NCBI GenBank assembly: GCA_947367795.1
Contig: CANBER010000002.1
Coordinates: forward strand, 1-64,000
Length of the DNA stretch: 64,000 nt
DNA from: an uncultured Candidatus Saccharibacteria bacterium
GTDB taxonomy: Bacteria > Patescibacteriota > Saccharimonadia > Saccharimonadales > Saccharimonadaceae
Direction of reading: 5' to 3'
Shown here one piece after another: positions 18,656-31,073 of this stretch; the stretch's first letter is position 1, and each line of letters starts with the position of its first letter. The notes beneath the pieces were generated by a model. It made no database searches and was not told the origin of the DNA. It worked only from the letters and a program-made list of their open reading frames with translations. Made by a program: the position numbers and the translations under genes.

Positions 18656-20545
18656 CTAGTCGCGCTTCAACATGACAGTAAAGGCCTCAGAGGGGATATC
18701 AACTTTACCGAAGCGTTTCATCCGGGCTTTGCCTTTCTTTTGCTTGTCAAGGAGTTTGGCTTTACGATCGCGGTCGCCGGTGTGGATTTTGACAGTGACA
18801 TCCTTACGATAAGCGCCGATGGTTTCGCGGGCGATAATTTTGGCACCGATTGCGGCCTGGAGAGCGACCTCAAAATTTTGGCGCGGGATGACGGATTTGA
18901 GTTTCTTAGTAATTTCGCGACCAAGCGCATCAGCTTCGCTACGGTGGCACATCAAGCTTAGGGCGTCCATGCGATTTCCGGCAACGAGAAAATCTAGACG
19001 AACGAGATCCTCTGGACGATAGTCTGCAAGTTCATAGTTGAAGCTAGCATAGCCGGAAGTAATCGACTTAAGCTGATCATAAAAATCGGTCAGCAAGTTT
19101 GCCATTGGCGCGTCAAAGTCAATCACAGCACGATCTTCAATATAGCTCAGGTTGGTCTGATGCCCGCGCTTGTCGTTAATCAGACCGAGAACTCCACCGA
19201 TCATGCTCTGAGGGAGAATAATTTCTCCTTTAACCCAAGGCTCACGAATTTCAGAGATGGTAGATGCGTCGGGTAAGTCGGCAGCAGAACGGATATTGAG
19301 ATTTTCGCCATCAGAAGTCGTCACCTCGTAATTGGTAGAAGGATTTGTAATCACAAGGTCAAGGCCAAACTCACGCTCGAGGCGTTCCTTGATGATATCC
19401 ATATGGAGAAGGCCGAGAAACCCAATCCGCAAACCAAAACCAAGCACTGGAGAATTTTCGGGCTCGAAGCTTAGGGCTGAATCTGATAGGGCGAGTTTTT
19501 CGACGGCATCTTTGAGCTCTTGATACTGATCGTTGGAAACGGGGAAAAATCCGGCATAGACAAAGGGGAGGACGTTTTTGTAGCCAGGAAGTGGCGCCGA
19601 GGCAGGAGATTTGGCGAGGGTGATCGTATCGCCGACTTTGGCTTCACGGGTGGTTTTGAGGTTGGTCACAATATAGCCAATCGTACCGGCACTCAGACTA
19701 TCTGCAGGACTCATTTTGGGAGTGAGGCTACCAACTTCAAGAGCAAGACCATTGGTCTCGGTGGCCATCATATGAATCTCGGAAGCTTTAGGGATTTCGC
19801 CATTAAAAACTCGAACGTAAAGAACAACACCGCGATAATCGTCAAAGTATGAATCGAAGATGAGCGCTCTAGTTTCGCGAGATTCATCATTCAACATTTC
19901 TGGAACCCGTTCGCGCCAGCCTGTCGTTACAGGCAGCTTGCTCGCTTCGCTCGCTCCCCGTTGGTCGCGAAGATTCCCAGAAATATTAAATGCCAAATCT
20001 CGCGGAGCTGGAGCATGCTCAATGATAGCGTTGAGGATGTCGGGGACGCCCTGGCCGGTCTTACCGGAGGCGAGAATGATATCCTCGGGGCGACAGCCGA
20101 GGAGGTTGATAATTTGAGCAGAGACTTTTTCGACGTCGGCAGCGGGCAGATCGATCTTATTAATAACTGGAATGAGATAAAGGTCCTGTTCTAAAGCTAA
20201 GTAGACATTGGCGAGAGTCTGAGCCTGGATGCCCTGAGTCGCATCGACGACGAGTACAGCAGTCTCTACAGCCTGAAGCGAGCGCGAGACTTCGTAAGAA
20301 AAGTCGACATGGCCAGGGGTGTCAATCAAGTTTAGAGTATATCCCTTCCAGTGCATTTGGACTGGAGCAAGCTTGATAGTAATGCCCTTTTCGCGTTCAA
20401 GATCCATAGAATCAAGGAGCTGAGATTTCATTTCGCGCTGAGAGACCGTGCCAGTTAACTCCATCATGCGATCAGCGATGGTGGATTTACCGTGGTCGAT
20501 GTGAGCAATAATACAGAAATTGCGGATGTGATCAATATTCGTCAT
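18656..20545 (-). CDS. lepA: Elongation factor 4 with in-frame palindromic insertion
   Basis: Ribosome-associated GTPase (back-translocase). Motifs G1 AHIDHGKST, G3 DTPGHVDF and G4 NKIDLP, plus the LepA C-terminal domain ending in a Lys/Arg-rich RMKRFGKVDIP stretch, are all present. At 629 residues it is about 30 longer than usual. The surplus is a segment at about residues 182-223, between PAPR and TRALIFDS, where other EF4 proteins have roughly eight residues. That segment is encoded exactly by a 125-bp palindrome. The start is divergent from tilS with only 31 bp between the start codons. Confidence 0.95.
   Translation of the reverse strand: MTNIDHIRNFCIIAHIDHGKSTIADRMMELTGTVSQREMKSQLLDSMDLEREKGITIKLAPVQMHWKGYTLNLIDTPGHVDFSYEVSRSLQAVETAVLVVDATQGIQAQTLANVYLALEQDLYLIPVINKIDLPAADVEKVSAQIINLLGCRPEDIILASGKTGQGVPDILNAIIEHAPAPRDLAFNISGNLRDQRGASEASKLPVTTGWRERVPEMLNDESRETRALIFDSYFDDYRGVVLYVRVFNGEIPKASEIHMMATETNGLALEVGSLTPKMSPADSLSAGTIGYIVTNLKTTREAKVGDTITLAKSPASAPLPGYKNVLPFVYAGFFPVSNDQYQELKDAVEKLALSDSALSFEPENSPVLGFGLRIGFLGLLHMDIIKERLEREFGLDLVITNPSTNYEVTTSDGENLNIRSAADLPDASTISEIREPWVKGEIILPQSMIGGVLGLINDKRGHQTNLSYIEDRAVIDFDAPMANLLTDFYDQLKSITSGYASFNYELADYRPEDLVRLDFLVAGNRMDALSLMCHRSEADALGREITKKLKSVIPRQNFEVALQAAIGAKIIARETIGAYRKDVTVKIHTGDRDRKAKLLDKQKKGKARMKRFGKVDIPSEAFTVMLKRD
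19878..20002 (-). repeat. Palindromic element inserted in frame in lepA
   Basis: Outer arms CGAGATT/AATCTCG, then CATT/AATG, ATTTCTGG(G)AA/TTCCAGAAAT and TTCGCG/CGCGAA pair around a centre that itself holds the hairpin GCCTGT-AACG-ACAGGC. The core from GGGAATCTTC to AACGACAG matches the gpmI element at 30613-30729 over about 60 bp. Confidence 0.8.
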
Positions 20546-23159: not shown

Positions 23160-23505
23160 CTCTTTTACCTCCAAAAGTGGTTAGGACGTCAAAAAGTAAG
23201 CAGGCGCGTACAGTTTGACGAGTTATTACTTTCCACCTTGGGTGTCGCTAGGCTTACAAATGGCTGATCTATCTCCAAACGATAAGGTCATGTTTGGTCA
23301 GAAAAGGAACTATCATGCCAAAGTGCTTATGCAAAAAGCGACACCGCAAGGTGTCTACTCCATTCGCAACCTATACCCGACACATGTTCGAGAAAGCTAC
23401 TTATGCGGTGCCGCTTAAAGCATCTCCAACATGCAGATTAGGGTATAGGTATTGATGGCATAAATTACTACCAAAAACTGGTCGCGATATAAAGTAGACA
23501 ATTTC
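23160..23505 (-). ncRNA. Structured RNA or leader, copy 2 (upstream of FISUMP gene)
   Basis: Promoter TTGTCA (23529-23534), 17 nt, TACAAT (23506-23511), start near 23499. GTCTAC at the 5' end pairs with GTAGAC (+ strand 23494-23499 with 23353-23358); ACCTATACCC pairs with GGGTATAGGT; GCATGTT with AACATG; the apical AAGCGG..CCGC stem follows. A hairpin GACACC-TTGC-GGTGTC plus GCUUUUUG (23332-23355) could end a 168-nt RNA. Downstream, AGCGACACCCAAGGTG can pair back to the same hairpin strand, so termination and read-through into the surface gene may compete. Confidence 0.65.
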
Positions 23506-29282: not shown

Positions 29283-31073
29283 CTAGGATTCGATGAGTGG
29301 TGGCTGCCACGATGCGGGATAATCGGCCAGCCCTAGCAAACGCGTAATAGTGGCGGCGACATTGGCTAATCCCGGATGTTTGAGATCAGCAGCGTGGTAT
29401 TTGAGACGGTTGGGCGTATTGTCATAAAAGATACAGGGGACAGGATTGGTGGTATGTGAAGTCTTGGCAATGCCGTTTCGGTCGATGAGCTCTTCGACAT
29501 TGCCATGATCAGCCGTAATCAGCAATATGCCGCCAAGCTCATCAACACGTCGAGCGAGACGCGCGAGTTGGAGATCGATAGCCTCAACCGCAATAATTGC
29601 CGGTTCGAGTTCGCCAAAATGCCCGACCATATCGCCGTTGGGATAGTTAATACGAATGAACTGGTACTGATCGAGTTTATCTAAGACAATATCGGTGATC
29701 TCTGCAGCTTTCATCCAGGGGCGAGTATTATAATATGGATTGGCGTCAGAAGCTACTTCAAAGTGTTCTTCATGTGGAGCTTGCTTATAACTATTGCCGT
29801 TAAAGTAGTAAGTAATATGGCCAAACTTGACAGTCTCTGAAATGGCAAACTGCGAAATCTGCTGCTGACCAAGAAAAGTATTAAGGGGGGCGTTGATTTC
29901 TACTGGGGGTACGAGAGTATGCTTAGGAATATGCCGATCACTATCATATTCCGTCAAGCCAACAAAGAGAACTTGAGGGATTTTACCGCGATCAAATTCT
30001 TTAAAGGTAGGATCGGTGAAAGCAGCGGCAATCTCAACAGCACGATCAGCACGAAAATCATAATAGATCATCACGTCGCCATCTTGCATTGCCCCAATAG
30101 GTCTTGCACCGTGCTTCTGCTCGGCAGCAGAGCTTTTGGCACGAGCAGCGCGGGAAGCTAAAGCGGAGCTAGCTGCAGCATTCTCTACGACCACGAAAGC
30201 TGGCAAATATTGGTCTTGGATTTTGGGGTCTTCGCGGCGGAAAGTTTTAATGGCGTCGCGAGCAGATTTAAACTCGCGCGGAGCTTGACCGTGTGCAATC
30301 ATATCCCAGCCGAGTTTGACCATACCCCAGTCATTGCCGTAGCGGTCCGCCACAGCGACCATGCGCCCAGCGCCGGACGCGATGCGGATATCCGCGTCTG
30401 GGAATTTGGTGCAAAACTTTTCTAGGCGTTCAAGGTACTCGAGAGCAGACTGAGGAGGGACGTCGCGACCATCAAACAAGGCATGGATACGGATGCGACG
30501 AATACCAGCTTTGTAGGCCTGAGTAATCATTTGTTCAAGATGGCGAATGTCGCTATGGATTCCGCCGTCGGAAAAGATACCACAAAAATGTAAGGTACCA
30601 GTAATGTGAGTTGAGCAAATCTGATGCTTTTTGGGGCCCGCTTCGTTTCGTACTGTCGTTATAGGAGAAACTCGCTTCGTTCGCTCCTCGTTAGCCGTGA
30701 AGATTCCCACAAAGGCATCGTCTTTACTCTTAGCACAATTATCAGCACCTAACCATTTCATGGCATCTTTCCAGGCCTTGGAGTTCCAAATATCACCTGT
30801 GGCAAAAGCAGCTTCGATGCTGGCGACACCTTGTTTAATGATTTGTCCAGAACCGAGCGCATTATGGCCAACTTCGGAATTCCCCATTTGTCCAGGCATA
30901 ATACCAACTGCTTCGCCTGAGGCAGCTAGCGGAATATTGAGATAGTTGGCCAAAGCATGATCAAGAAATTCGGTGTGGGCCTGGCGAAAAGCGTTGCCGC
31001 TGCGAGCGGTACGCAAGCCAACACCGTCAAGCACGGCTAATACGACTGGACCATTATAATGCAATTTCTTCAT
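29283..31073 (-). CDS. gpmI: 2,3-bisphosphoglycerate-independent phosphoglycerate mutase with two insertions
   Basis: Mn-dependent glycolytic enzyme interconverting 3- and 2-phosphoglycerate. The phospho-serine motif is GNSEVGH near residue 66; metal ligands appear in ITADHGNVEE and GDMVGH. Usual length is about 510-550; this one has 596. One surplus (about residues 115-154) is encoded by a 117-bp palindrome related to the lepA element. A second, Ala-rich surplus (about 300-325, encoded near 30105-30195) also contains an inverted repeat (CTGCTCG/CGAGCAG). Last gene of the agmatine operon, 13 bp behind aguA. Confidence 0.92.
   Translation of the reverse strand: MKKLHYNGPVVLAVLDGVGLRTARSGNAFRQAHTEFLDHALANYLNIPLAASGEAVGIMPGQMGNSEVGHNALGSGQIIKQGVASIEAAFATGDIWNSKAWKDAMKWLGADNCAKSKDDAFVGIFTANEERTKRVSPITTVRNEAGPKKHQICSTHITGTLHFCGIFSDGGIHSDIRHLEQMITQAYKAGIRRIRIHALFDGRDVPPQSALEYLERLEKFCTKFPDADIRIASGAGRMVAVADRYGNDWGMVKLGWDMIAHGQAPREFKSARDAIKTFRREDPKIQDQYLPAFVVVENAAASSALASRAARAKSSAAEQKHGARPIGAMQDGDVMIYYDFRADRAVEIAAAFTDPTFKEFDRGKIPQVLFVGLTEYDSDRHIPKHTLVPPVEINAPLNTFLGQQQISQFAISETVKFGHITYYFNGNSYKQAPHEEHFEVASDANPYYNTRPWMKAAEITDIVLDKLDQYQFIRINYPNGDMVGHFGELEPAIIAVEAIDLQLARLARRVDELGGILLITADHGNVEELIDRNGIAKTSHTTNPVPCIFYDNTPNRLKYHAADLKHPGLANVAATITRLLGLADYPASWQPPLIES
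30613..30729 (-). repeat. Palindromic element inserted in frame in gpmI
   Basis: Arms GAGTAAA/TTTGCTC, GATGC/GCATC, TTT/AAA and GGG/CCC flank a core from GGGAATCTTC through GAGCGAACGAAGCGAG to AACGACAG, which matches the lepA element. The 5' part of the core is read one base out of register relative to lepA, while the 3' part is in the same frame, so the element stays open in more than one frame. Confidence 0.75.

Follow-up and report, generated by a model that had tools for sequence, protein, structure and literature searches.

The window, a 64,000-nucleotide stretch of a contig from an uncultured Candidatus Saccharibacteria bacterium, carries gpmI and lepA on its minus strand, and the reading frame of each gene stays open through a copy of a palindromic element. 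The features are as follows.

29283..31073, minus strand: gpmI, 2,3-bisphosphoglycerate-independent phosphoglycerate mutase (NCBIfam TIGR01307, E 4e-114)
30613..30729, minus strand: gpmI copy of the element with its flanking stem (basis: fold, absence from 12 orthologues, pLDDT)
30627..30715, minus strand: element core of the gpmI copy, a decayed copy (three-way-junction model)
18656..20545, minus strand: lepA, elongation factor 4 (NCBIfam TIGR01393, E 1.4e-250)
19878..20003, minus strand: lepA copy of the element with its outer stem (CATTTAATATTTCTGG../..CCAGAAATGTTGAATG; DNA fold z -6.35)
19896..19985, minus strand: element core of the lepA copy (covariance model R2, E 4.8e-17)

The two copies have a 43-nt stretch in common at 86% identity, and the 16-mer GAGCGAACGAAGCGAG, with two mismatches at most, occurs twice in the window against 0.05 occurrences expected from shuffles. 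A covariance model built without either window copy, from copies of other Saccharibacteria species only (R2), matches exactly two places in the window, one in gpmI (E 4.3e-14) and one in lepA (E 4.8e-17). This independent model rules out a chance low-complexity similarity and bears out the original prediction that gpmI holds a second copy of a palindromic family whose core is common with lepA. Another model, R1, gives the gpmI core an E value of 7.9e-20, with the gpmI copy itself in the training set. The 5' part had been read as one base out of register between the genes, and it is ('V GIFTANEERTKRV' in gpmI, 'SGNLRDQRGASEAS' in lepA), because the copies differ in length by 2 nt in mid-core; the loop part (ATA/GTA ACG ACA) lies in a common frame, as had likewise been proposed. 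The claim that the arms pair in each copy held fully only for lepA, whose DNA fold is far more stable than that of shuffled sequences. For gpmI it is partly true: the flanking stem pairs GAGTAAA../..TTTGCTC and GATGC../..GCATC, but the copy folds no better than shuffles as DNA (z -0.08) and only modestly better as RNA (z -2.0), and about 11 of its positions are flagged as non-standard pairs in the R2 alignment. The gpmI copy is thus among the most decayed of the family, and the lepA copy is better preserved.

The original prediction had proposed a search for empty sites in relatives, and such sites exist: the GpmI insert is absent from 12 orthologues of the same genus, with a net gain of 37 residues over the closest of them. 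GpmI residues 113-156 are predicted to be disordered (pLDDT <50), the element region encodes about 37 extra residues, and the insert aligns to a point adjoining residues 131-140 of PDB 3nvl. Judged by its position relative to PDB 2ywe, the lepA copy sits in the LepA linker that joins domains I and II. Several sister genomes have long inserts with model matches in this linker, which is short in other members of the genus and in all other families read.

Other features of these sequences were recorded separately. GpmI has a second insertion of about 24 residues (about 298-321; window 30110-30182), which is absent from the 12 relatives, is predicted to be disordered and does not match the element model. 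The gpmI gene itself is present in most tested genomes of the genus and in none of the 12 genomes searched from other families of the order. Elsewhere in the window lie two copies of a repeat of about 60 nt (126-188 and 23285-23356), in which two blocks are 97% and 91% identical, with more similar sequence around them.

The two copies had been described as a pair, a count that proved far too low, since the host genome holds about 9-10 copies and the genus more than 1,000. In the host genome, seven places matched a search pattern, and a DNA search added shorter, diverged ones. The R1 model, built from eight copies, gave 12 matches in this genome, ten of them with E <0.01 and 9-10 of them convincing. 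These copies lie in obg, der, leuS, lepA and gpmI (names assigned by reading of the sequence), with one more copy upstream of dnaK and an internally deleted one upstream of rplL. The latter (L015, G000:C11:2285-2334) has kept its outer stem and part of hairpin P2.

With R1, all 24 genomes of the genus that were searched, host included, had matches; 16 genomes taken from other families of the order had none. When 84,980 species genomes were scanned with a pattern, the matches listed were all in Candidatus Saccharibacteria, and the sources of these were mostly metagenomes of ruminant and other animal guts. R2, built from 100 copies on contigs found by that scan, matched 91 of 99 genomes of the genus, with 0 to 44 copies per genome and about 1,084 matches in sum (by addition of the table). 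In a phylum-wide draw of 287 genomes, R2 hit three members of the genus and gave one marginal match in a sister genus, so that outside the genus there is a single marginal match among about 284 genomes. Within the phylum, apart from this match, the element family is restricted to one genus of gut Saccharibacteria.

The core, of about 70-85 nt, folds as a single-strand three-way junction inside a long outer stem, and consists of a closing stem, hairpin P2, a CGAA-like linker and hairpin P3. P2 reads TTCGC-GA-CC-AACN-GG-GA-GCGAG, with tandem G-A mismatches and an AACN-type loop, and P3 ends in CCCGT-AACG-ACGGG. Among 98 distinct rows, changes on both sides were observed in 24 of 26 pairs, the cells with such changes numbered 377 against 110.5 in shuffles, and sliding the core pairing lowered every covariation measure. 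The exact P3 motif was used to gather the copies, so the invariance of P3 is in part a product of selection by the search; the alignment, in turn, had been fitted to the model. A search of the window against Rfam 15 returned tRNAs only, and a permissive Rfam search with one well-preserved element locus gave no plausible match.

Most copies lie in genes, and others in spacers. We found 116 of 134 distinct copies within spanning open frames, 90 in sense and 26 in antisense orientation. Five of the six frames occur: all three antisense ones and, in sense orientation, the two in which the conserved TAA of the P3 loop is out of frame. The genes that hold copies include argS, valS, ileS, leuS, gatA, tsaD, priA, polA, uvrB, gyrA, typA, recX, trmD, queA, miaA, murB and truB; these names come from reading the translations, without a profile for each. 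Copies in genes add about 26-42 residues and keep the frame open. Empty sites were found not only for gpmI (12 species) but also for lepA, tsaD, typA, queA and others, and in the genes inspected the net gain of filled over empty sites is a multiple of three. No direct target duplication was evident in the filled and empty sites inspected, which are comparisons between species at about 72-88% identity. Occupancy of dozens of unrelated genes, in five frames and both orientations and with strong covariation, supports the view that this is a mobile or structured nucleic-acid element and not a protein domain. Translation itself is inferred from the open frames only; the insert is probably translated as a floppy insert.

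The outer arms differ in sequence in every copy, and the left and right flanks pair within each copy: at each site the core is flanked by about 16-22 nt per side that can pair with one another. The typical layout is 8-9 bp, a one-base bulge on the left and then about 8 bp, and the stem usually stops 8-9 bp past the bulge. In 108 copies with good arms, an unpaired left nucleotide recurs about 7 nt outside the model; about 70 bulges lie on the left at positions -10 to -3, and few on the right. Among 73 aligned copies, chosen for having the bulge, the bulged base is a purine (G or A) in 59; beyond it, the next 8 positions are paired in 82-100% of copies, and from position 10 pairing is near background. 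We identified 17 pairs of copies at different sites, several within one genome, whose cores differ by two mismatches at most. Identity within these pairs mostly extends only from about +5/+7 to -4/-6 of the model, and the arms beyond differ, yet each is self-complementary. Near-identical cores with different self-complementary arms indicate that every insertion makes or remakes its arms, and this supports the suggestion in the original prediction that they arise by compensatory change or by capture of flanking DNA. Which arm derives from the host rests on single cases: at mnmA (L118 versus L138) the empty host site reads like the right arm, with the left arm as the reverse complement of that sequence, and at tsaD (L152 versus L036) it is the left arm that looks host-like.

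The element also carries a strand signature. Wobbles in the arms, read on the element strand, are more often G.T than A.C (58 versus 30, p 0.004). In copies whose gene is on the opposite strand the bias persists (14 versus 2), an indication that what folds, as a single strand, is the element strand and not the mRNA. We observed 83 of 98 copies on the strand of negative local GC skew (p 1.4e-12), with background genes evenly split by skew, and sense or antisense placement follows the skew of the gene strand (p 9e-11). In the window, where both copies are read from the minus strand, the skew of the plus strand at these places is positive. The tests count every copy as independent; orthologous copies are not fully so, and the nominal p values are weaker for it.

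Several copies have changed in place. The trmD copy is inverted between two genomes whose flanks are about 90% identical, and at shared sites in gatA, der and lepA the orientation of the element is opposite between species. L117 and L126 differ jointly at the two sides of the P3 stem and of the inner arm, and their cores are otherwise the same. Some copies are internally deleted, and one (L153:2247) has, compared with L191, a tandem duplication of the right arm and of what follows it (about 46 bp). Where inverted repeats are present, template switching is known to make their arms alike and to turn the spacer round, and it depends on fork direction (PMC8604942, PMC7202029). By analogy, such a process would be in keeping with paired arms and in-place flips; the sharp limit on arm length and the bulge are left unexplained by it.

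The analysis tied no transposase, recombinase or autonomous copy to the element. Mobilisation as in the REP/RAYT system was rejected, since Y1_Tnp (PF01797) is present in none of 24 genomes of the genus, against 7 of 16 outside. RVT_1 is enriched (17 of 24 genomes in the genus versus 1 of 16 outside), but a reverse transcriptase as the mobiliser found no support in the 20 reverse-transcriptase regions inspected (L222-L241), none of which held an element. In these, the reverse-transcriptase genes stand beside a small accessory ORF and often a large ORF resembling a variable protein, and most of the loci look like diversity-generating retroelements. Half-element patterns searched in 8 genomes, which was not exhaustive, revealed no split or long autonomous copy. 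Nor was there any sign of carriage by phages or plasmids: viral contigs, searched with the exact pattern, and records of phages and of plasmids all lacked a match.

We consider it probable that the family is a genus-specific, non-autonomous, selfish palindromic mobile element and that the gpmI copy is one of its members. What this reading lacks is a view of the order of insertion events, for want of a close strain pair with a very recent insertion. The strong covariation and the conserved letters of the junction and loops could instead reflect a structured RNA acting in the mRNA, as a regulator, a processing site or a miniature self-splicing intron, with its outer stem kept by compensatory evolution, and the host copies upstream of dnaK and, deleted, upstream of rplL would suit such a role. 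We regard this as quite unlikely: open spanning frames are needless for an intron, 26 of the 116 genic copies are antisense, the element strand favours its wobbles even with the gene opposite, dozens of unrelated genes are occupied, and the best-preserved locus tested had no plausible match in Rfam. It is also unlikely, in our judgement, that the copies are a passive repeat without current mobility, that is, old insertions whose arms are kept paired by template-switch correction and gene conversion. Orthologous copies common to species at about 85% flank identity (gyrA, argS, ychF) and the joint changes between L117 and L126 speak for such a history; near-identical cores at non-homologous sites of one genome (L152/L166, L109/L113, L098/L154), the spread of copy number among species from 0 to 44 and the many empty sites speak against it.

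The arms might alternatively be host hairpins that existed beforehand, with the element inserting into their loops. Two empty sites do look palindromic (valS in L187 and tsaD in L036), but 31 empty orthologous sites showed no excess hairpin stability (median p 0.60, Fisher p 0.82), which largely refutes this idea and makes it very improbable.

To return to a mobile element, its mobility may proceed via a single-stranded, replication-linked form of the DNA with an enzyme supplied in trans; both are inferred and neither has been identified. The arms would become complementary at insertion or shortly afterwards, when fold-back or template-switch synthesis at the replication fork copied one host flank onto the other, and the same process might flip the core in place. 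Against this model of the arms, ordinary quasi-palindrome correction does not predict a sharply limited arm length or a conserved bulge. Selection would presumably remove insertions that break a frame, so that survivors in genes keep theirs open, and the residues of the insert may then be translated as a floppy insert at the protein surface. A more specific version, which we put forward only tentatively, is that insertion makes an inverted and not a direct duplication of a target flank of about 16-20 nt, with a one-base purine bulge and on a strand that depends on replication. To our knowledge, target duplication in inverted form by a single-stranded, hairpin-primed element has not been described; if this version is true, such an element has seeded many core genes of one genus.

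The nearest known kind is the Rickettsia palindromic element (RPE), a repeat of about 105-146 bp that occurs, joined in frame, in many conserved protein genes; one such gene was shown to give an active product (PMC2229807). RPE and their Wolbachia equivalents resemble the present family as in-frame palindromic repeats in conserved protein genes, here with 116 of 134 copies in spanning frames. We know of no transposase for either, and by analogy the present family may work as RPE do. RPE are hosted by Rickettsiales, whereas the family described here occurs, among the matches listed, in Saccharibacteria only and is genus-restricted within its phylum. It also differs in its conserved three-way-junction core, in self-complementary arms specific to each insertion and in an orientation tied to GC skew. 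The arms of RPE lose identity with time (PMC6649704), whereas here they stay paired in most copies. We do not file the family as a member of the RPE, given its different hosts and architecture and the lack of an alignment with RPE sequences.

Some bacterial MITEs (Correia/NEMIS, ERIC, RUP, YPAL) have also been found in frame in genes (PMC2229807). They are likewise small, non-autonomous, folded and dispersed. Most MITEs are defined by shared terminal inverted repeats and direct target duplications; here, by contrast, the outer arms are unique to each copy, only the inner stem is common, and no direct duplication was seen in comparisons between species. REP/BIME sequences with their RAYT (Y1) enzymes are palindromic and multi-copy, with a plausible route through single-stranded DNA, but the genus genomes examined lack Y1_Tnp and the repeats described here are mostly within genes. 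In Nematomorpha mitochondrial genes, coding inverted repeats keep their arms paired, and template switching has been proposed for them (PMC6649704). For those palindromes no shared mobile core is described and both arms encode conserved protein, in contrast to the common core inserted here. Byp elements of Magnusiomyces mitochondria, as far as the account that cites them goes (PMC6649704), are palindromic and interrupt many coding genes; on the same second-hand account they are untranslated and bypassed, whereas here the spanning frames stay open. A self-splicing or bypassed insert was rejected for the present family on the ground that genic copies keep a spanning open frame and that the net gains inspected are multiples of three. 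The open literature, searched without most subscription papers and without any preprints, offered nothing relevant on palindromic or MITE elements in Saccharibacteria, CPR or Patescibacteria.

Palindromic elements within genes, known mainly from Rickettsiales, thus occur, apparently independently, in a lineage with tiny genomes, where they have passed 1,000 copies in one genus, many of them in essential enzymes. With hundreds of filled, empty, flipped and arm-rewritten sites, both the movement of the element and the effects of template switching on coding DNA become testable. The same sites show, as a ready-made catalogue, which loops of core proteins tolerate insertions, and they warn annotators that inserts of 26-42 residues of this kind are not protein domains.
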